A model generated the notes under the pieces. It was given only the letters and a program-made list of their open reading frames with translations. It searched no databases and was not told where the DNA came from. From Muscardinus avellanarius (taxonomy: Eukaryota > Chordata > Mammalia > Rodentia > Gliridae): a DNA stretch of 64,000 bases. This document shows, piece by piece, positions 5,791 through 53,143 of the stretch; positions within the stretch are counted from its first letter, which is position 1; every line of letters begins with the position of its first letter. The DNA is taken from NCBI GenBank assembly GCA_963383645.1, contig OY726571.1:21689599-21753598 (forward strand), read 5' to 3'. The position numbers and the translations under genes were made by a program.

Positions 5791-7049
5791 TTAAGGAGTA
5801 GGAAAGATGGAAGGAATGAAGAAGAAAAAAGAAGAGAAATTTGTTAAATAGCTAGTAGCTGTGTTGGGAGGAGCAGAGCATGACCCTGAAGACAAGAGAT
5901 TAGGAGCAGTTATACTGAAGTAGGGGAAGGAATTGCAGAGATAGGCAAATACTGGAAATTCTACCCAAAGAGATCTCAAGGTTATGCAAGTAAGAATGGT
6001 TTCTGGAGAGCACAGAATGACCTCAGCGTGGAGCCTTCACATCTCTGTATCAGCCACTTAACCATTTTGCCTTAGATTAACTGAGCCACATGATGTTCAT
6101 GGTCAATAAAGTTCAGAGCCAGCATACACTGTGGAACTGGGTTCTGGTTTTATGGGCCCCCGATATTAATCTCTGTTCCAAAGAACAGACATACCAGGAG
6201 CCAGAAAAGAGCTCTTAATTAATGAATTTATCGTCTACGGTTTGCTGGTAATGAGGGAAATCCTGTACTGTACATTCTTTCAAGTGTAGATTGAGGATCT
6301 GGATCTGAAGCTAGTGAGGTAAGCAATTCAGCCCTTTTCCTATGATTGTGAGCCAAATTAATGGCTGGATTACTAATGGCTGTGCAGATTTTTTTTTTTA
6401 AGTGTGGTGGGTGGAGGAAAAGGGAGTGAGTCTTTTCTTGGCATGAACCAAAATGAATGAAAATACTCTCAGTGCTATTATAATCTATTCTGTGAGATTT
6501 CCAGGTGGCATTCTGCCATGGCTCAGGACACACCCATATGGACTCAAACCCTTTGTGTAAGGTTATCACAGTTGCTCGTAGGGACCAAAGCAGAAAGATT
6601 GCTTTTCCCCACCCAGCACACCCCCAACTCCTGCCAACTGTGAGATGTAGGAGTGTTGTATCAACATAATAATACTAATAATAACCATGATGAGTTCTTA
6701 CCAAGCTGAGAAATTCTAAGAAGTTTCTTCCACCTTCTTCGAATACCAACTATTGTCCCTAAGTTTCTAGACTTCTCTTTTAATCAGTGTTAGACCTCTG
6801 CTTGGCATAACCTTAATTTTTAGGTCATTTCACTAAGTTTAAATTGTAGAAACATAGGCTTGAAAGCAGTCTGTTCTACTACAACTTGAAAACAACATTC
6901 TGCCACCGTAGACATTCTCTAGGAGCATGCTTGACAGGCATTCACTCAGCCTCTGGTTAGTGTCTCTACACATCCAGAGACCTAGAGCCCGCATCTTGAG
7001 GAGGTCAAGCCATCTGGGGCATTTGAATTGACTTCAAGGTAGCGTGATG
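5791..7049. other. Unique non-coding DNA
   Basis: No repeat recognised. A 113-aa minus-strand open frame at 6228-6569 has no recognisable domain, and I do not treat it as a gene. Confidence 0.4.
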
Positions 7050-7235
7050 TGCCAGAGATGGTGTTGAGCTCAAAGGCCTAAGAATTGGTTCAGCTCTTGT
7101 TCTCCCACTGACCAGATGAAGGGCCTTGGGGAAAAATTACCGTGACTCAAAATAAGTCATTCTTATCAGCTCTGAGGTTGTTTGATATGATCTCAGTGAC
7201 TTCTAGCCATAACATTCTACCTTCAAATTGTTTTT
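7050..7235 (+). mobile_element. Ancient MIR/L2-like relic
   Basis: The tail GATATGATCTCAGTGACTTC followed by TAGCCATAACATTCTAC resembles the 3' part of old mammalian MIR/L2-type repeats. Very diverged, so the family is uncertain. Confidence 0.4.
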
Positions 7236-7848
7236 TTCTATGTCCAGCCTAAACTTGCCTCTCTGCAACTACCAATCGTTCATGTGAATAATAACTTTGA
7301 GAACTGTAAAGGATAAGTCTTATTTCTCATGGATGTAGCAGCTCATCATGTATTTGGGGATAGTTAAAAACGACCACAGTAGTTCAGGATAAATATCTTG
7401 GGACATCATGAATCCTCCTCTGATGACTTGACTTTCTAGGCATTTTCTGACAGCCCTCTTATAGACATACTCAGTGTTGACTAGTTAAACTATGGTCCTT
7501 AGAACTTGGCATAGCACTTCAGAGTTGGTCGAGTGAGCACAGAAGTATTGAGGCTAAAACAATGACCTCATCCCTGGGCTTACTCTAGACCCTGTGCATC
7601 TTTGGTTAAGGCTGCCTTGAGTTCTTTCAGCCCTTCTAGTCATGCTTGGTACAGATCATGTGTTTGTCAAGCCACTAACCCCTTTTCACATGAGCTACTC
7701 TTCAACCAATTATCTCTAGTCTATACAGGAACATTTAATGATGCCCCCTTTTTAAATATATAAATAATATACATTTTGTAGTAATGCGAAAAAAGAGTAA
7801 AAAAAAAAACAAAAAAAAAACAAAGCTTTCAAAATTGCAGTACTCGGA
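7236..7848. other. Unique non-coding DNA
   Basis: Nothing recognised. Confidence 0.4.
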
Positions 7849-8046
7849 GCCGGGTGTGGTGGTGCACACTTGTAATCCCAGCATTTGGGAGGCTGAGACA
7901 GGAGGATTGTGGGTTGCATACAGCCTCAGTTACTTAGTGAGGCCCTTTGCAACTCAGTGAGATCCTGTTTCAAAATAAAGAATAAAAAATAGGGTTGGGG
8001 TGTATCTCAAAGGTAGAATGCTCCTAGGTTCCACTCCCAGTACCAC
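7849..8046 (+). mobile_element. Dimeric SINE, type 2
   Basis: Complete copy from GCCGGGTGTGGTGGTGCACA to TCCACTCCCAGTACCAC, with an A tail. Confidence 0.92.
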
Positions 8047-8224
8047 AAAAAAAATTTGCAGTACTCAGAAAGCACTTTTTTCTTATGCTAAAATAGTTTT
8101 TTACAAAAATATATTGGCATTTCTTACGTACTCAGTTCTAAATCTCCTTATCTAATTTTTACCAGATTGCTCTGTGTACTCTTAACAAAGGCCTCTATGA
8201 AAGGCTGGTCTCTAACCTCTACCA

Positions 8225-8499
8225 GCCTATCTTTCCAACCTCCTTCCAGTCATTGTGTGGTCACAGTGCTTTTGTGACCAGCTGCTTTTCATTCCTACCC
8301 AGTTTCTGCTTACACATTCCATTTAATCTTCCCCATCTCCTCCATTTGTTCTTTTAGAAAACTCCTATGCATCCTTCAAGGCATAGTTCAAATGTTATCT
8401 TCTCCATGATATTCACCTGACTTTCTCTCTCATCCCCATTCCATCAGACCTCTCTTATCTGTATCTTGGTTGATCTTGACACCGCTCTTTTATAACAGG
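8225..8499. mobile_element. L2-like relic
   Basis: The string ATCCTTCAAGGCATAGTTCA followed by AATGTTATCTTCTCCATGA resembles the L2 phrase CTTCAGGTCTTTGCTCAAATGTCACC. I did not decide the orientation. Confidence 0.45.
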
Positions 8500-9445
8500 T
8501 CTCAGCCAACATTCTCACTGCCATCATCCAAAACAACTGACCACACAAATTAGAGGAAGAAAGATTTATTTGCTCACATTTTCTGGGGACTTCAAGGGTC
8601 AGTCCATGAAATCAGAAAATTATAGTAATATATGCATATCCGTGTTTATAGTAGCACAATTCACAATAGCCAAATTATGAAACCAGTGTGGGCATTCCTC
8701 AACAGATGAATGGATTACAAAATTATAGGATATATGCACAATGGAATTCTACTCAGTAATGAAGAACAAAACGATGTCATTTTAAGGAAAATAGATGAAC
8801 TGGGAGAACATTATGTTAAATGAGATTAGCCAGTCACAGAAAGTGAAGGGTCATATTTTTCTCTCATATACAGAAGGTGGAGAGTAATTGGAACACCAGA
8901 GGGGCTTCAGATAATGGAGGAGAAACCCTAGTGGAGCCAGGGAGGTGATCTAAGGGAAGGGGGGAGAGAGGATCAATGAAGGAATAATTTCCATCGACAT
9001 TATGTATATATGTGAGAATACCAGTATCAGTTTCAGTATCCTGTATGGGGAAGGGGAAGAAGAAGGAAGGAGCCGGGGAAAGCCCATCAAGTGCTATGTG
9101 TGCATATGTCACTATCACTGTGAACTACATTGTGATGCGAGACTCGTGTACCAATAAAAGCATTAAAAAAATAAAAAGTAAAGGTTCAATCCATGTCAGG
9201 CTGGGTTTGTGGAGCTTAGCGTATGGTGGTGGGAAATGCAGAGAGGGAAAATACTAGGTTCCTGCTCTCACATCATGGAGGCAGGAAGCAGAGAGTGTGT
9301 GGGGATAGAAGAGACCTTCTATAGTCCCCAAGGCCACACCCCCAGGGACGTCTTCTTAGCAATCAAACTCTGCTTCCAGCATTGCTACCTTCTTTTCATT
9401 AGGGCTAGGGGGACATTCTAAGTCCAAACATTACATAACACCTGA
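8500..9445 (-). mobile_element. MaLR-like LTR, antisense, split by an L1
   Basis: Left part 8500-8608 has AAAACAACTGACCACACAAA and GAAGAAAGATTTATTTGCTC. Right part 9196-9445 has CATCATGGAGGCAGGAAGCA, CCACACCCCCAGGGACGTC and ends GGGGGACATTCTAAGTCC-AAACATTACATAACA. Together they match the antisense layout of an MST/MLT1-type LTR. The L1 3' end at 8609-9181 sits inside it. Confidence 0.65.
8609..9181 (+). mobile_element. L1 3' end, 5'-truncated
   Basis: Begins in the end of ORF2 (TGGGCATTCCTCAACAGATG, ATGGATTACAAAATTATAGG, CACAATGGAATTCTACTCAG), runs through a purine-rich 3' UTR and ends ACCAATAAAAGC plus an A-rich tail. It is bracketed by a 14-bp duplication with two mismatches: AGGGTCAGTCCATG at 8595-8608 and AGGTTCAATCCATG at 9182-9195. 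Two related 3' ends lie at 19161-19412 and 26690-27085. Confidence 0.9.
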
Positions 9446-43844: not shown

Positions 43845-44622
43845 CTCTACCAAAGAGGGAATTCAAATTGACAGTAAACATGAAAAGATGTTCAAGCTCA
43901 TTAGTAATAAAGAAAATATGAATTAAAACAACAAAGATACCATTATACACACCCACCTGATTGGCAGAAATTGAAGTCTGATAATGCCAAGATCTGGCGA
44001 GGATGTGAGGTAACAGGATATTTCATACACTGCTGGTGGGAGTCTAAATTGGTTCAAACCACACTGGAAGAGAGTTTGGCATGATTTGATAAAGCCGGAT
44101 GTTATATAAACCCTATGACCTAGCAATTCCACTCTTAACTGTATTCCTCAAAGAAATGTTTACACATATGCACCCAGAGACACATAACCAGAGTGTGGCC
44201 ATGATCCCAAGAGGCACCAATTGGAAACATGTCAGAGCTCCGTCAACAAGAGCCGTGGTGGGGTCATTCTATTGAATGCTACTTACCAATTAAATCAAGG
44301 AGAATTGCCCCCCCAAAATATAGATGAACCTTATAAACATGATAGCGAGCAAAAGAAGCAAGCTGAAGCTGAAAGAACACATATAGGAGGATGTGACTCA
44401 CAAAACGAGAAAATGGAGGAGGCGAAGCATGTTGTTCAGAGATGGCAGGTAACACAAGTAAGTTACAGCAAGACCATGAGAAATCCGTAAGTCAAGACTG
44501 TAGTTACTGGACATCCTGAGGGCGAAGGCAGAGACCTAGGATACCTCTGTTTTCAAGCCTAAATTGTGGTTACAACCTGACTGTTTGCTTTGTAACTCTT
44601 TGTTCAACTGCAAATAGTTTTT
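43845..44622 (+). mobile_element. Old L1, 3' part of ORF2 and UTR
   Basis: Sense L1 phrases in order: CATGAAAAGATGTTCAAGCT, ATGAATTAAAACAACAAAGA, GGCGAGGATGTGAGGTAAC, CACTGCTGGTGGGAGTCTA, TGACCTAGCAATTCCACTC, GATGAACCTTATAAACATGA and TAGCGAGCAAAAGAAGCAAG. The 89-aa open frame at 44221-44490 lies inside this decayed region. Looks like an old (L1M-class) copy. Confidence 0.88.
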
Positions 44623-44642
44623 AAAATACATGAAGGCTGGGC
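44623..44642 (+). repeat. 5' target-site duplication of the composite element
   Basis: AAAATACATGAAGGCTGGGC, identical over 20 bp to 50224-50243. The preceding bases are TTTTT, so the cut is TT|AAAA, the consensus of L1 endonuclease. The last 8 bases are the start of a SINE that the insertion separated from its target. Confidence 0.92.
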
Positions 44643-45055
44643 CCCGGGCCGAACTGCGCATAGCACGCCAGACCCCTGGAGAAACCGGGCCCAGTAAGAC
44701 GCTGGGTTCTGGGCGGGGGTCCCGCGCAGTGCACACCCGCCAGGGCCCGGGTCATAGGACCCTGGGCCCCGGGCCGAATTGCGTGTAGCATGCCAGACCC
44801 CTGGAGAAACCGGGCCCAGTAAGTAGCTGGGTTCTGGGCGGGCGTCGCTCGCGGGGCACGCCAGATGGGACCCGGGTCGCGGGACTATGGGCCCCGGGCC
44901 GAAATGCGCTTAACACGCCAGACCCCTGGAGAAACCGGGCTCAGTACCCTGGGTTCCGGGCAGGGGTCGCGAGGAGCACGCCAGCTGGGGCCCGGGATGT
45001 GGGACCCTGGGCCCCAGGCGGAGTAAGGCAGATCACTCTGGACCCATGGGGAAAC
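44643..45055 (+). repeat. GC-rich 5' tandem repeats (about 124 bp x 3.5)
   Basis: The core GCCCCGGGCC recurs at 44641, 44765, 44891 and (as GCCCCAGGCG) 45011, spacings of 124, 126 and 120 bp. Each unit carries ACGCCAGACCCCTGGAGAAA followed by CCGGGC and a GGGTTCTGGGCGGG stretch. Short GC-rich units at the 5' end of an L1-mobilised element recall the promoter monomers in rodent L1 5' UTRs. That parallel is inference. Confidence 0.85.
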
Positions 45056-45637
45056 CGACAGGGTTACAGTGCTACTGAGTGCCTGATCCCACTACCTCCT
45101 CAAACCACATATACTGTCTTCTCTTATTAAAAAAAAAAAAAAATAAGGAACAGAAAAAGTAAAAGAAAAATATCGGAGAGGAGGTAAGAAAGCCGTTATG
45201 GATGCCAGGACACTGGAGATGCAGACAAAACTTATCTAAATACACTGGAACTTATGGAAAAATTCGCCGTGAAAGAGGACTGCTATTTCTCTATATTGTT
45301 AAGAATCTCAGACATCACCTGTAAGGAGAGAGCTTAGCAGAGACCAAGGAGAAATGCAGTGTTGAAAGAGTTCTCCGCGATGGTGGTGGAGACTTGTATT
45401 CAGGAGAAGCAGAAACCGGATCCTACCAACTTTATTTTTTTGGAGAAATTACACCAAATGTCAAATGCTACCATCACACATGCTTAGGAACACTGGACAA
45501 CATTCAGAGTGGAAAAAGAGCCTGGGAAGGATTTGAAATGGTGGAGGCAGTGGCAATGCCAGTGGCCAATACTCAGGGGAGGCAGAGATCTGATACATTA
45601 CACCTGGAACCTTTGAAATAATAACCACAGAGACAGT
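45056..45637 (+). other. Linker of the composite element
   Basis: Unique sequence with an A14 run near 45129. A strong 5'-splice-site-like GAG|GTAAGA lies at 45181-45189. One frame is open from about 45191 to 45484 apart from a TAG at 45335-45337, and an overlapping frame (75 aa, 45394-45621) is open in another phase. Neither matches a protein I recognise. It could be a degraded coding segment, a captured exon, or non-coding DNA. Confidence 0.5.
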
Positions 45638-47000
45638 GATTGGAACCTGCTGAGGGGTTAGGCGGGTGCCGGGGCCAGTGGCCAACATCGGAGCTTGCTG
45701 TGAGGCAAGGCCACTAATGAGGCCTCCGTGGCTGGGATTGGAACCTGCCAAGGGCTTAGACCGATACTGGGGTCAGCGAGGGCGGCATTGGAGCCTGCCA
45801 TGAGGCAAGGCTTGTGCTGGGGCCTCTGAGGTCGGGTCCAGAACCTGCTGAAGGGTTAGGCCGGTGCTGGGGCCAGCGAGGCCGGCATTGGAGCCTGCCG
45901 TGAGGCAAGGTCGGTACTGGGGCCTCCAAGGCCAGGATAATAGCTTGCGGAGGGGTTAGGCCAGTGCTGGGGTCAGCGAGGCCAGCATCGGAGCCTGCCG
46001 TGAGGCAAGGCCGGTGCTGGGGCCTCCGAGGACGGGACCGGAGCCTGCTGAGGGTTTAGGCAGGTGCTGGGGCCAGCGAGGCCGGCATCAGAGCCTGCCA
46101 TGAGGCAAGGCCGGTACTGGGGCCTCCGAGGCTGGGATAAGAGCCTGATGAGGGTTAGGCCGGTTCTGGGGCCTCCTAGGCCGGGATCAGAGCCTGCCTT
46201 GAGGCAAGGCCGGTACTGGGGCCTCCGAGGCCAGGATAAGAGCCTGCCAAAGGGTTAGGCCGGTGCTGGAGCCAGCATGGCCGGCATCAGAGCCTGCCGT
46301 GAGGCAAGGCCAGTGCTGGGGCCTCCGAGGCCAGGATTGGAGCCTGCCTTGAGGCAAGGCCGGTACTGGGGCCTCTGAGGTCAGGAGAAGAGCCTACCGA
46401 GGGGTTAGGCCTGTGCTGGGGCCAGCGAGGCCGGCATCGGAGCCTGCCAGGAGGCATGACCAGTGCTGGGGCCTCCAAGGTCGGGATCGGAGCCTGCCGA
46501 AGGGTTAGGCCAGTGTTTGGGCCAGCGAGGCCGGCATCAGAGCCTGCCTTGAGGCCAGGCCGGTACTGGCACCTCCAAGGCCAGAATAAGAGCCTACGGA
46601 GGGGTTAGTCCAGTGCTGGGGCCAGCGAGGCCAGCATCGGAGCCTGCCGTGAGGCATGGCCAGTGCTGGGGCCTCCGAGGCCAGGATAAGAGCCTACCGA
46701 GGGGTTAGGCCGGTGCTGGGGCCAGCGAGGCCGGCATCGGAGCCTGCCGTGAGGCATGGCCGGTGCTGGGGCCTCCGAGGCCAGGATAAGAGCCTACCAA
46801 GGGGTTAGGCCGGTGCTGGGGCCAGCGAGGCCGGCTTCGGAGACTGCCGTGAGGTAAGGCCGGTGCTGGGGCCTCCGAGGCCAGGATAAGAGCCTGCCGA
46901 GGGGTTAGGCCGGTGCTGGGGCCAGCGAGGCCGGCATCGGAGCCTGCCATGAGGCATGGCCAGTGCTGGGGCCTCCGAGGCCAGGATAAGAGCCTACCGA

Positions 47001-48400
47001 GGGGTTAGGCCGGTGCTGGGGCCAGCGAGGCCGGCATCGGAGCCTGCCGTGAGGCATGGCCGGTGCTGGGGCCTCCGAGGCCAGGATAAGAGCCTACCGA
47101 GGGGTTAGGCCGGTGCTGGGGCCAGCGAGGCCGGCTTCGGAGCCTGCCGTGAGGTAAGATCGGTGCTGGGGCCTCCGAGGCCAGGATAAGAGCCTGCCGA
47201 GGGGTTAGGCCGGTGCTGGGGCCAGCGAGGCCGGCATCGGAGCCTGCCGTGAGGCAAGGCCGATACTGGGGCCTCCGAGGCCAGGATAAGAGCCTGCTGA
47301 GGGGTTAGGCCTTTTCTGGAGCCAGTGAGGCCGGCATCGCAGCCTGCCGTGAGGCATGGCCGGTGCTGGGACCTCTGCAGCCAGTATCGGAGCAGGCCGA
47401 GGGGTTAGGCCGGTGCTGGGGCCAGCGAGGCTGGCATCAGAGCCTGCCGTGAGGCAAGGCCCGTACTGGGGCCTCCGAGGCCAGGATAAGAGCCTGCCGA
47501 GCGGTTAGGCCGGTGCTGGGGCCAGCGAGGCTGGCTTCGGAGCCTGCCATGAGGCATGGCCGGTACTGGGGCCTCCGAGGCCAGGATCGGAGCCTGCTGA
47601 GGGGTTAGGCCAGTGCTGGGGCCAGCAAGGCCGGCACCGGAGCCTGCCATGAGGCAAGGCTGGTACTGGGGCCTCCAAGGCCAGGATAAGAGCCTGCCGA
47701 GGGGTTAGGCCGGTGCTGGGGCCAGCGAGGCCGGCATCGGAGCCTGCCGTGAGGCATGGCCGGTGCTGGGGCCTCCGAGGCCAGGATAAGAGCCTACCGA
47801 GGGGTTAGGCCGGTGCTGGGGCCAGCGAGGCCGGCTTCGGAGCCTGCCGTGAGGTAAGGCCGGTGCTGGGGCCTCCGAGGCCAGGATAAGAGCCTGCCGA
47901 GGGGTTAGGCCGGTGCTGGGGCCAGCGAGGCCGGCATCGGAGCCTGCCGTGAGGCAAGGCCGATACTGGGGCCTCCGAGGCCAGGATAAGAGCCTGCTGA
48001 GGGGTTAGGCCTTTTCTGGAGCCAGTGAGGCCGGCATCGCAGCCTGCCGTGAGGCATGGCCGGTGCTGGGACCTCTGCAGCCAGTATCGGAGCCGGCCGA
48101 GGTGTTAGGCCGGTGCTGGGGCCAGCGAGGCCGGCATCGGAGCCTGCCGTGAGGCAAGGCCCATACTGGGGCCTCCAAGGCTAGGATAAGAGCCTGCCGA
48201 GCGGTTAGGCCGGTGCTGGGGCCAGCGAGGCTGGCTTCGGAGCCTGCCATGAGGCATGGCCGGTGCTGGGGCCTCCGAGGCCAGGATCGGAGCCTGCTGA
48301 GGGGTTAGGCCAGTGCTGGGGCCAGCAAGGCCGGCACCGGAGCCTGCCATGAGGCAAGGCTGGTACTGGGGCCTCCGAGGCCAGGATAAGAGCCTGCCGA
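47001..48400 (+). repeat. 700-bp higher-order repeat, two copies
   Basis: 47001-47700 and 47701-48400 match unit by unit. Shared private variants are CTTCGGAGCCTGCCGTGAGG with GTAAG (47101 and 47801), CGATACTGGGGCC (47201 and 47901), CTTTTCTGGAGCCAGTGAGG (47301 and 48001), the GCGGTTAGGC start (47501 and 48201) and AAGGCCGGCACCGGAGCC (47601 and 48301). Two of the seven unit pairs are identical by eye. Confidence 0.93.
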
Positions 48401-48650
48401 GGGGTTAGGCCAGTGCTGGGGCCAGCGAGGCCGGCATCGGAGCCTGCCGTGAGGCATGGCCGGTGCTGGGGTCTCCGAGGCCAGGATAAGAGCCTGCCGA
48501 GGGGTTAGGCCGGTGCTGGGGCCAGCGAGGCTGGCATCGGAGCCTGCCGTGAGGCAAGGCCGGTGCTGGGGCCTCCGAGGCTGGGATTGGAGCCTGCCTT
48601 GAGGCAAGGCCGGTACTGGGGCCTCTGAGGTCAGGATAAGAGCCTGCTGA

Positions 48651-49050
48651 GGGGTTAGGCCTTTTCTGGAGCCAGTGAGGCCGGCATCGCAGCCTGCCGT
48701 GAGGCATGGCCGGTGCTGGGACCTCTGCAGCCAGTATCGGAGCCGGCCGAGGGGTTAGGCCGGTGCTGGGGCCAGCGAGGCCAGCATCGGAGCCTGCCAT
48801 AAGGCAAGGCCCGTACTGGGGCCTCCGAGACCAGGATAAGAGCCTGCCGAGGAGTTAGGCCAGTGCTGGGGCCAGTGAGGCTGGCTTCAGAGCCTGCCAT
48901 GAGGCATGGCCGGTGCTGGGGCCTCCGAGGCCAGGATTGGAGCCTGCTGAGGGGTTAGGCCAGTGCTGGGGCCAGCAAGGCCGGCACCGGAGCCTGCCAT
49001 GAGGCAAGGCCGGTACTGGGGCCTCCGAGGCCGGGATTGGAGCCTGCCGA
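48651..49050 (+). repeat. Partial third copy of the higher-order repeat
   Basis: The CTTTTCTGGAGCCAGTGAGG variant recurs at 48661, and AAGGCCGGCACCGGAGCC recurs in the unit at 48951. The step from the second copy is 650 bp instead of 700. Confidence 0.85.
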
Positions 49051-49835
49051 GGGATGAGGCTGGAGCTGGGGCCAGTGAGGCCGGCATTGGAGCCTGCCGT
49101 GAGGCAAGGCCGGTGCTGAGGCCTCCGAGGCCGGGTTCAGAGCCTACCTTAGGGCAAGGCCGGTACTGGGGCCTCCGAGGCCAGGATAAGAGCCTGCCGA
49201 GGGGTTAGGCCGGTGGTGGAGCCAGCAAGGCTGGCATCGGAGCCTGCCGTGAGGCAAGGCCGGTACTGGGACCTCCGAGGCCGGGATAAGAGCCTGCCGA
49301 GGGGTTAGGCTAGTGCTGGGGCCAGCGAGGCCGGCATCGGAGCCTGCCGTGAGGCAAGGCCGGTACTGGGTCCTCCGAGGCCAGGATAACAACCTGCCGA
49401 AGGGTTAGACCGGTGCTGGGGCCAGCGAGCCTGGCATCGGAGCCTGCCGTGAGACACGGCCAGTGCTGGGGACTCCTAGGCCGGGAACGGAACCTGCCGA
49501 GGGGTTAGGCCGGTGCTGGGGCCAACGAGGCCGGCATTGGAGCCTGTCATGAGGCTAGGCCAGTGCTGGGGCCTCCGAGGCCGGGATTGGAATCCTGCCA
49601 AGGGGTTAGGCCGGTGCAGGGGCCAATGGCCAGCATCGGAGCCTGGCGTGAGGCAAGTTCACTCCTGCAGCCTCCAAGGCCGGGACCAAAGCCAGCTTAG
49701 GGGTTAGACCGATGCAGGGGCCAGCGAGACCAGAACTGGGGCCTCCCATGAGGCAAGGCCGCTGCTTGAGCCAGCGAGGTCTGGATCAGTCCACTGAGTA
49801 GCCAGGCCACTACTGGGACCATCAAGAGTGGGATC

Positions 49836-50223
49836 GGTACTTGCAACGCAGCATGCACAGAGAAATATCGCAGAAAATATAAATCAGACGCTTCTCTTAA
49901 TCAGCAATAACTAGGAGGAAAAGGGCAAAAGGAAGAGGTTTAGCTATAGAAAGGGCCCTATAGTGAAGCAACTAATGTGATCAATCAGAGGGTATGTAAT
50001 ACTGGAGGACGGAGCCTCTTTAAAACGCAGGAGGTACATAAACAAATGTATCAAAGTAAATCACCAAAGAAGCGTGGGATGGAGGGAGGGGAAGGGAATG
50101 GGATGGAGGCTGGAGGAGGGCTAACTGGATGATGTGTGCTTGTATATCCTCTCAAGTCTTGTACTCCAATGTGATTGATATATGACTACAATGCACCAAT
50201 TTAAAAAATAAATTAATAATAAA
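49836..50223 (+). other. 3' body and tail of the composite element
   Basis: Unique after the VNTR. Contains the purine-rich tract GGGATGGAGGGAGGGGAAGG, then GATGATGTGTGCTTGTATAT, AGTCTTGTACTCCAATGTG, ATATGACTACAATGCACCAA and an A/T-rich tail. These phrases align with the L1 3' tail fragment at 16121-16258, and less closely with the L1 3' ends at 8609 and 19161. A G-rich polypurine tract followed by such a tail is the usual layout of L1 3' UTRs. Confidence 0.75.
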
Positions 50224-50243
50224 AAAATACATGAAGGCTGGGC
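50224..50243 (+). repeat. 3' target-site duplication of the composite element
   Basis: Identical to 44623-44642 over 20 of 20 bases. Confidence 0.92.
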
Positions 50244-50746
50244 ATGGTGGCACATGTCTGTAATCCCAGTACTTTGGGAGGCTGAGACAGGAGGATCACA
50301 GTTTTGAGGTTGACTTCAGAAACTTAACAACACCCTCAGCAAATTAGCAACACCCTCTTTTTTCCTTCCTTCCTTCCTTCCTTCTTCCTTCCTTCCTTCT
50401 TCCTTCCTTCCTTCTTCCTTCCTTCCTTCCTTCCTTTTTTCTTTCATTTTGATTTGTGATACTGGGGATTGAACCCAGGGGTATTCTACCTCCAAGTCAC
50501 ATCCCCAGCTGTATTTTAAGTTTTATTTTGAAACAGAGTCTCACTAGGTTACTTAGGGTCTCACCAAATTGCCAGAATTGGCCTTAAGCCTGTGATCATA
50601 CTGTCGCAACTCCCAAGTACTGGGATTACAGACAGACATGTGTCACCATGTCTGGGCTTCAAGAACTTGCTTCAAAATAAGAAAGTAATATTGGGCTGGA
50701 GTACAGCTCGGATGCAGAATACCCCTAGGTTCAGTCTCCAGTGCCA
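50236..50746 (+). mobile_element. Dimeric SINE, type 1, split
   Basis: Left half 50236-50355 (GGCTGGGCATGGTGGCACAT). Right half 50661-50746 (GGGCTGGAGTACAGCTCGGA to GTTCAGTCTCCAGTGCC). Its first 8 bases are copied upstream of the composite element, so this SINE was there first. Confidence 0.88.
50356..50660 (-). mobile_element. Dimeric SINE, type 1, nested, with (TTCC)n tail
   Basis: Tail 50356-50446 is CCTT/CTTC repeats. Body 50455-50660 runs GTGATACTGGGGATTGAACC to CACCATGTCTGGGCTT. Confidence 0.88.
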
Positions 50747-50867
50747 AACATGCAGATAGATTATTTTAAGTAATTGATTTAAAAGACAGAGAAGAGAGAC
50801 ACTTGTCCCCAAATGCCCAAGACGAAATAGGATATCACTAAGAGTTTGCATCCCAAGAAAGTAGTAA

Positions 50868-51089
50868 AAAAAAAAAAAAAAAAAAAAAGCCAGGCATAGT
50901 GATACATGCCTGCAATCCTAGTACTTGGGAGGCTGAGACAGAAGGATCTCAGGTTTGAGGAGAGCCTCAGAAACTTAGCACGACTCTCGGCAACCTAGCA
51001 AAAACCTGTTTCAAAACAAAGAATGAAAAAAAAGTGGTGGGTATGTAGCTCAGAGGCAGAACGTTTCATGGTTTCAGCCCCAGTACCCG
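50868..51089 (+). mobile_element. Dimeric SINE, type 1
   Basis: Preceded by an A20 run (possibly the TSD or tail side). AGCCAGGCATAGTGATACAT to TTTCAGCCCCAGTACCC. Confidence 0.88.
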
Positions 51090-53143
51090 CCCCCCGTCTC
51101 CTTTGTGAGTAGTATATCATTTGTAGGAGTTCTAATTATGAGTCTAGCTTCAACACCCATGAGGAGAGATGGGCATGGATTGGGTTAGCGGCCTACAGCC
51201 TCAGTCGCAACAGTTTATCTCTGTGCAGCCACCATTTAAGAAGTGTTCCATTGCCCATAAAATTGGGAGAATTACCTCTAGAAATTCTCTAATCATGAGA
51301 AAAATGACTGCCTCATTTTATCCGTGTGGTAAATATTACATGGCCTCAATTCTAAACTCTCACAAAGCAAGAGTTCATATTTGGAGCTCCAGAAGCCAGT
51401 GAATCCTGCTTACCCACACGGATCCGTAAAAAAGAATCTCCCTGCCTTCTGACACTGTTGCTGGGCTCACACAGGGCTACCAACTTCTTTACGCCAGTTG
51501 AAAATTGTCCCAGGAATTTCAACAATTTTCTTGTTGACTCTTTCATGGGCTATGACCCCGAGGGTTTGAAGGACAGCTTCAGGGCTTGCGTGGTTAGGGA
51601 GCCTGCTGTTGATCTTGGCTTGGAGAGAGGACTTGGGCTCAGAGTGTGTGGTCGAGGAAGCCAACTGACACCTGTGGGGGACTGAGGGCTGCTTGTGTAG
51701 AGCTGTTTTACCTGTGGCTCAAGGATTCCTGGGAACACTGTCCAGGCATGTTTCTGCTGGTGAAATGCTATCGTCCTCTTCTTTCCATTTACAGTATATA
51801 GCTTCGACGGGGTAAACAGGCTCGACTTTATAATGATGACTCACTAGGTGTGAGAACAATGTATGTTAGTAACATTCACATTGACCTTGAAAGGATTACC
51901 CCCCCAAAAAAAATAAGGTAGAAAATACATCCTCACAGATTCTATTTCTCTGATTGGAGCAGGAAAATCTGTTGCTTCTGTCTAAAGCCAACTAGAAACA
52001 CATGAACTCAGAAACTAGCAGGCAACATTTTATAGCTCAGTCATGAAACCCTTAGAAAATGTCCCTATATTTTCCCCCAAATAACAGTTATTCTATGACC
52101 TACCTGGTGGTATCCAGAGGCCAGCCAAAGGACGACAAGTAGATGTTTTTCAGGATAATCTTCAGATGATTTCAAGACCACTATTTTCTAGCATGCAATA
52201 GCTTTAAAAAAAGATTCCAGAGTTGCAATTAAAGTCCCTTCTCACTGTAAGAGTCTGTGACCCTGTATGTGTGATGTTTCTGATCCACAGTCATGACAGT
52301 TGTGGGTGAGAGGTACGTAACCTACCATCTCCACTGTACCCATCAGGGACCGCAGTCCTAGACAGCAGTAGCTAACCAGTCACAAATATCTGTTTTCTGA
52401 GGCATATACCTACACATGATCTATTATTACATAAGCCCATAAAGTGGTATTTTCATTGGTTGTAATTAAGTAAATACTATATTTATGGCCTGCCATATCA
52501 AGCCTTTGTTACTGTCCTAAGAAGAAATGCTCTTTTCACTGCAAGAATTGGGTATTCAGAATGAGCATAGGTAGCTGTATATTTTCTCTGGGAAGGAAAA
52601 AGACCAAGAGTGGCATATTTTAAGAGTTTCCAAAATGAGAACATTGGCCAAAAGTTGAAGGTGAGGGATCAAATTCACCCTGCTGTGTATTTAATGGGTT
52701 CACTTTGAATAGGCCTGCAAGCACTTCTGAGCTGTCTGCCAGATCTCTAACACGGTGGGGAGTAACCACTCCAAAGAAGCTGAGATTGGAAGAAAGCTTT
52801 GCATTAATGGAGGAGAGATCTGAACACTGGTACTGGTTGGAAGGAAACCCAGAGATGAGAAGAAAAAAATAAAAGCATTTAAGGAATTTTCCCCCTACAG
52901 GCTTGAAGCAGTCATTTCTTTTCTTGGTCCAATCCATGCTTAAACTTGTCTGAATTTCCACTGGGGTTTTCTTCAAATTGTGAACCAAATGTGGAGGGTT
53001 CTTGCCCTGACGTCATACTTCTTACACAGTCGGAATGCCTTTGCCCCCACCCTACCACCTCAAGCTCCTGCTTACTGGTTCATCCTTCAGACATCTTGTG
53101 AACTGGGAAGCTTCCCCCGCCCCTTCTTAGAGAGATAATTCCA
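51090..53143. other. Unique non-coding block
   Basis: 2 kb without a recognisable repeat. Open frames up to 122 aa (minus, 52620-52988) lack domains. Confidence 0.4.

Follow-up and report, generated by a model that had tools for sequence, protein, structure and literature searches.

A hazel dormouse element with the module plan of SVA and LAVA: evidence for an L1-dependent VNTR composite retrotransposon family

Results

We analyzed a 64,000-nucleotide stretch of rodent DNA (the window) and found, at positions 44643 to 50223 of its forward strand, an element bracketed by a perfect 20-bp repeat, AAAATACATGAAGGCTGGGC, with copies at 44623 to 44642 and 50224 to 50243. TT directly precedes the first copy, which makes the insertion site TT|AAAA. 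An earlier note on this DNA had claimed a perfect 20-bp target duplication (TSD) at such a site, and the claim was borne out: the pair scored above all 120 mismatched pairings in the control described below, although its secure part is shorter. At its 3' end the 5' copy shares 6 bp (CTGGGC) with the head monomer of the element (microhomology), which leaves 14 bp of secure duplication and puts the possible start of the element at 44637. The stretch directly downstream (50236 to 50360, forward strand), which we take to be a SINE, is probably older than the insertion. The note had placed the target at the 5' edge of this SINE and had taken this as proof of the order of events. The duplication reaches 8 bp into the SINE, but owing to the monomer homology the overlap is safe for only about 2 bp.

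The element is made up of four modules on the forward strand. The head (44643 to 45055, or from 44637 if the microhomology is counted) consists of about 3.1 tandem 125-bp GC-rich monomers and is a likely promoter. It is followed by a 582-bp linker (45056 to 45637), with neither a coding frame nor a Pfam match, and by a VNTR of 4,152 bp (45638 to 49789) with 50-bp units and a 100-bp period (2 × 50), conserved at its ends and variable in its interior. The 3' body begins with 280 bp (49790 to 50069) that matched neither the two L1s nor the HAL1-like element compared, and it ends with about 154 bp (50070 to 50223) homologous to the L1 3' end, in which 122 of 147 aligned bases were identical to the L1 copy L041. 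Tandem Repeats Finder returned a 125-bp array at 44637 to 45019 and a 100-bp array at 45858 to 49766, and the GC content was 0.70 in the head, 0.42 in the linker, 0.69 in the VNTR, and 0.42 in the body (flanks, 0.40 to 0.43). The GC-rich tandem repeats, linker, and ∼4.2-kb GC-rich VNTR of the earlier note were found in place by repeat search and GC profile, and its L1-like 3' UTR applies to the final ∼154 bp of the body and not to the first 280 bp.

The same note had seen no enzyme-coding frame, and we agree. The only two open reading frames (ORFs) of at least 100 amino acids in the element were antisense frames of the VNTR, no Pfam family scored above cut-off in the six sense frames of the linker and body, and an Rfam scan of 44500 to 51100 (E ≤ 1) returned no structured RNA. 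We also considered the linker as a decayed gene and rejected this, as Pfam returned nothing for the linker frames and the PDB only a chance-level match (E, 0.71).

The element belongs to a large family. Across the genome, a 28-mer from the body had 3,837 matches (1,934 and 1,903) and a 30-mer from the linker had 4,844 (2,421 and 2,423), each with up to two mismatches; the reversed control patterns of both had none. The best 40 matches in the genome were 96 to 100% identical for the linker and 98 to 100% identical for the body. We extracted 20 of the 39 other best-scoring linker copies with their flanks, a sample biased toward young and complete copies. Head, linker, VNTR, and body occurred in order in all 20, although only 54 bp of the body was left in L025 and the body of L021 had deletions. 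All four modules were likewise present in three of three older copies, whose linkers were 90 to 93% identical to that of the window. The order of 125-bp monomers, linker, VNTR, and 3' body was thus common to all 24 copies that we read across linker and VNTR, two of them with damaged bodies. When copies were chosen by the body instead, with ∼350 bp upstream examined, the VNTR lay directly upstream in 12 of 12.

Linker matches exceeded body matches, and copies without a body were suspected. In the three linker copies without an exact body match nearby that we opened, the body was present; the gap in counts probably reflects conservation of the two patterns, as judged from these three.

Non-CpG divergence of the linker and body from the majority sequence ranged from 0.41 to 2.17% among 21 high-scoring copies (window, 1.03%), and the linkers of the older copies differed from that of the window by 7 to 10%. 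Because older copies exist beside young ones, activity of the composite family seems to have extended over a long period.

We read target duplications in the young copies by eye. L012 and L022, which are segmental duplicates with adjoining flanks and a common TSD, were counted as one event, giving 20 events including the window. A TSD was read in 18 of the 20, again with the window; L010 had no clear TSD and looks as though target sequence was lost at insertion. L025, which has lost its normal 3' end, had only an imperfect candidate. As a control, TSDs were also scored automatically with A discounted, each event against 120 mismatched pairings of 5' and 3' ends drawn from the family. The score was above all 120 in 11 of 20 events (the window among them), the candidate in L025 equaled the best mismatched pairing (matched by 1 of 120), and the remaining eight events lay inside the mismatched range. 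The TSDs of L009, L011, L013, L016, L019, L027, and L028 were short or A rich and did not exceed every mismatched pairing; the hand-read TSD of L016 was missed by the automatic search. Insertion sites were TT|AA in 10 of 18 events, six of these TT|AAAA, and an A-rich tail ended every copy read except L025. At least 2 of the 12 body-chosen copies (L031 and L039) were cut inside the VNTR, that is, 5' truncated, and had perfect TSDs.

These observations bear on whether the locus is a local minisatellite or a segmentally duplicated repeat rather than part of a mobile family. The L012/L022 pair is indeed a segmental duplicate, but there are thousands of dispersed copies, and those that we opened had their own flanks and, in nearly all cases, their own TSDs. 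The local reading is ruled out by this dispersal and by the distinct duplications, and we give it practically no credence. The earlier note had proposed searching with the linker and body for a family, and the result was what a family would give: thousands of copies, with the opened ones sharing both ends and having their own VNTR lengths. The alternative that it had named, a single copy or local minisatellite, falls to the 3,837 and 4,844 matches and the distinct flanks.

Across 21 copies the VNTR measured between 608 and 4,152 bp, with a median of 1,677 bp, and 621 of the 729 units cut from these copies were 50 bp long. Our labeling of units as A or B was a crude word test that left many units unlabeled, and our conclusions draw on the lengths of the units and the conservation of the ends alone. 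In the 19 copies with a VNTR longer than 900 bp, mean pairwise identity was 0.95 to 0.96 at the ends and 0.72 to 0.78 about 500 bp inside. The segmental duplicates L012 and L022 differed in VNTR length (1,532 versus 1,982 bp), and therefore, on the evidence of this one pair, length changes in DNA after insertion.

The 20 events begin at many positions of the head monomer, with groups at positions 52 to 57 (six events), 66 to 72 (three), and 124 (three). Exactly one unmatched base lay between the TSD and the monomer in 7 of 20 events, and this base was G in all 7. No unmatched base, and hence no extra G, was found in 8 of 20, and the other 5 (L013, L018, L019, L021, and L028) had longer, mixed unmatched stretches. 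A second set comprised 19 junctions without 3' ends, reduced to 17 by dropping L059, whose head runs off the piece, and L046, whose alignment is ambiguous. In 11 of these 17 the template base is other than G, and in 8 of the 11 the base before the element is G (P = 0.001 if 25% G is expected; P = 0.03 at 40% G); with L046 kept, the count is 8 of 12. Reverse transcription of a cap would leave such an untemplated G, and we therefore read these junctions as pointing to initiation by RNA polymerase II within the monomers. Capped initiation within the head is probable on this sequence evidence. Transcription of mouse L1 also starts inside tandem monomers.

The ∼154-bp tail of the body, from a G-rich tract through TGCACCAA to the A-rich tail, aligned to the 3' ends of two L1s (scores, 124 and 113), both with an open ORF2 frame of 1,278 codons, and to the tail of a HAL1-like element (score, 87; shuffle maximum, 30). 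The three older composite copies showed the same homology. The tail is only ∼83% identical to the young L1, and its donor may have been a different or older L1. The head, the linker, and the VNTR over its first 1,000 bp gave nothing above shuffles against the UTRs of the two L1s and the HAL1-like element, save for an A-run in the linker: an alignment of the linker to an L1 3' UTR (score, 50; shuffle maximum, 29) was set aside, as the places reported by BLAST show this run. That the element is composite is demonstrated for the L1-like tail only.

Two alternative origins were weighed against this evidence. The first is an internally deleted L1 or HAL1 in which an expanded tandem repeat has replaced the ORFs, with head and linker representing an L1-lineage 5' UTR. 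Rodent L1 5' UTRs contain tandem arrays, which the head array resembles, and the last ∼154 bp are L1-like. Against this, neither the head, the linker, nor the first 1,000 bp of the VNTR rose above shuffles in comparison with the 5' UTR of the full-length L041 or of the HAL1-like element, and no Pfam L1 domain exceeded the cut-off in the linker and body frames. We rejected the head or linker as an L1 5' UTR on the lack of a match in these two elements, and in a comparison that covered two L1s and one HAL1-like element we consider a deleted L1 or HAL1 improbable. The second alternative, a long noncoding host RNA with GC-rich promoter repeats and a minisatellite that was retroposed and acquired an L1 3' end, is unlikely but deserves somewhat more weight. 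Among the comparisons made, the tail alone is traceable to a mobile element, as this origin would have it, and no single-copy source gene was met in passing. This alternative concerns where the family came from and not how it behaves now.

The genome also contains candidate L1 partners. Of 150 scored L1 reverse transcriptase matches, at least 50, counted by eye, lay in an open 1,278-codon ORF2, and many scores were identical; from these frames, L1 looks recently active in the dormouse. In L041 the 5' end is reached, and its own TSD could be read. The dormouse genome has HAL1-like elements as well (L024, L015, and L026), of which L024 encodes an L1 ORF1 of 322 amino acids. The earlier note had placed the DNA in a rodent, which is correct, and more narrowly in a sciurid, which is not: cytochrome b from a 16,727-bp mitochondrial contig was 100% identical to that of Muscardinus avellanarius over 374 residues, with the next species at 93%. 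Muscardinus is a glirid, in the suborder Sciuromorpha. L1 quiescence is reported for a ground squirrel in the portion of PMC5857283 available to us, and the combination of a sciurid host with L1 extinction was rejected on cytochrome b and the open L1 ORF2 frames.

Discussion

We conclude that the hazel dormouse very probably has a family of VNTR composite retrotransposons that are non-autonomous and depend on L1, and that the element in the window is one of its members. As far as sequence can tell, the family is a functional analogue of the ape elements SVA (SINE-R-VNTR-Alu) and LAVA (L1-Alu-VNTR-Alu). The copies are dispersed, have TSDs and A-rich tails, and encode no reverse transcriptase of their own, and the genome contains L1s with open ORF2. 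In the cycle that we propose, RNA polymerase II would start within the tandem 125-bp head monomers, and a capped noncoding RNA would run through the linker, VNTR, and body to the L1-derived 3' end, followed by polyadenylation. L1 proteins would presumably bind this RNA in trans, and a nick at TT|AAAA-type sites with target-primed reverse transcription would leave the A-rich tail and TSD, some copies being 5' truncated along the way. The VNTR would lengthen and shorten later, in DNA.

The earlier note had likened the element to SVA and LAVA. The module plan is the same, but descent is not supported, and the likeness is one of plan. Genuine membership in the hominoid lineage, whether inherited or transferred, could be argued from the order of module types, which is the same, and from the unit length and the end-conserved VNTR, which are similar in the available part of PMC4432496. 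However, the dormouse element has no CT-hexamer array, as hexamers nowhere run beyond a single unit, and a SINE-derived module did not clearly emerge: in a comparison with two local SINEs, the head, linker, VNTR (over its first 1,000 bp), and body gave nothing clear above shuffles (one linker/antisense SINE score was 24 against a shuffle maximum of 23). The literature, as far as its available text goes, also confines the group to hominoids, and on these comparisons we hold membership to be very improbable.

According to the accessible parts of PMC4432496 and PMC7353768, VNTR composites occur in hominoid primates alone, and the former sets them apart as unique among non-LTR elements in having complex internal tandem repeats. 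Because they are reported as hominoid specific, the dormouse composite is probably of independent origin. Among the titles and abstract openings listed from the open-access literature on SVA-like, squirrel, or dormouse elements, none described a rodent equivalent, and nothing was found that paired the dormouse with retrotransposons or LINE-1; repeat databases may already list the family, though not read as a composite.

We therefore think it likely that dormice independently evolved a VNTR composite that joins a monomeric polymerase II promoter, a VNTR of ∼50-bp units, and an L1 3' end and is present in thousands of copies, old and young. This suggests that the SVA-type parasite plan evolved more than once. 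If true, the convergence would make the large GC-rich VNTR a selected part of an L1-parasitic RNA and not an ape accident. Lupan et al., in the text available, treat the role of the VNTR in retrotransposition as unsettled; we infer that it has a function in the element. The dormouse family, which is apparently of separate ancestry and shares its genome with open-ORF2 L1s, offers a natural replicate for this question. Traits common to dormouse and ape VNTRs (GC richness, ∼40- to 50-bp units, conserved ends, and length change in DNA) become candidate requirements, while those that differ, such as the Alu-like domain and the hexamers, would be dispensable for the composite plan. In addition, its thousands of insertions give a wild rodent both candidate regulatory sites and markers that vary in length.

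Several known systems share part of this plan. As in mouse-type L1 promoters, copies start inside a monomer and monomer number is variable, but the dormouse composite lacks ORFs and its monomers are unlike the dormouse L1 5' UTR compared. It has no ORF1 and ORF2 between UTRs, in contrast to L041 and L042. HAL1 elements are L1 relatives with ORF1 only, and they resemble the composite in their L1-derived 3' end; the HAL1-like L024 encodes ORF1, however, whereas the composite encodes nothing, with no 100-amino-acid ORF in the linker or body and no Pfam L1 domain. LAVA, of gibbons, is likewise a VNTR composite with an L1-derived fragment in its 3' part. In the available text of PMC4432496 it has AluSz and L1ME pieces at the 3' end and a CT/Alu-like region at the 5' end, and the L1 piece in the dormouse is instead the extreme 3' end of its own genome's L1 type. 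SVA, of hominoids, is the closest parallel: it is noncoding, with 5' tandem repeats, a GC-rich, end-conserved VNTR, a 3' module with poly(A), TSDs, and thousands of copies (PMC4432496 and PMC7353768, in the parts available), and its insertion is of the L1 type, as in the dormouse. The VNTRs of both SVA and LAVA have conserved ends and a variable interior (PMC4432496, same part). Where SVA has CT hexamers and an Alu-like region, the dormouse element has 125-bp monomers and a 582-bp linker, and its VNTR unit of 50 bp, paired as 100, differs from that of SVA, as does its rodent host. The 3' module is SINE-R or U1-Alu-U2-L1ME in SVA and LAVA; in the dormouse element the 3' tail is L1-like. The central GC-rich VNTR with units in the ∼36- to 50-bp range and conserved ends, the TSDs, the A-rich tail, and the L1-type site of SVA and LAVA are all found in the dormouse element, and its host, Muscardinus avellanarius, is not a hominoid. 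It is set apart from membership by the hexamers, the SINE-derived region, and the host, but in its VNTR, TSDs, tail, and L1 partner it acts like SVA and LAVA.

Insertion histories of composite copies

The L1 elements of the dormouse are strikingly intact. At least 50 of the 150 scored reverse transcriptase hits in the host genome (PF00078 profile; counted by eye) lie in open ORF2 frames of 1278 codons, and many share identical scores. One such L1 (L042) has a 322-residue ORF1 frame in addition to its ORF2.

In the window (50224-50360) and in two further pieces carrying composite copies (L024:2989-3230 and L014), a SINE begins where the 3' target duplication of the composite ends. The duplication is present a third time in L024, slightly mutated, 3' of the SINE. 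This third copy suggests that the same L1 nick site served for two insertions there, first the SINE and then the composite.

Between the body and the 3' target duplication, L014 and another copy, L018, carry an additional A-terminated stretch of ∼45 to 85 bp (in element orientation, after position 4117 in L014 and after 4738 in L018). These stretches are candidate 3' transductions and could point to source copies.

Two copies on contig C10, L012 and L022, have adjoining flanks and their target duplication in common and are a single composite insertion that was segmentally duplicated; their VNTRs measure 1,532 bp and 1,982 bp, respectively. L065 appears to contain nested composites, with one copy sitting in the body of another.

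Other retrosequences

An intronless open frame of 580 amino acids at L017:278-2017 looks, judging from its protein sequence, like a FUT8 retrocopy. A further strong cytochrome b match in the genome, besides the mitochondrial one, lies on a chromosome-size contig (C23:90928265-90928822) and probably represents mitochondrial DNA that was copied into the nucleus.

L024 also bears a HAL1-like element on the minus strand (5860-8620), in which a GC-rich 5' region is followed by L1 ORF1 and then an L1-type 3' UTR, with ORF2 absent between the two. Its ORF1 (322 amino acids) matches Pfam L1 domains. Further HAL1-like elements were seen in L015, L021, L022, and L026.
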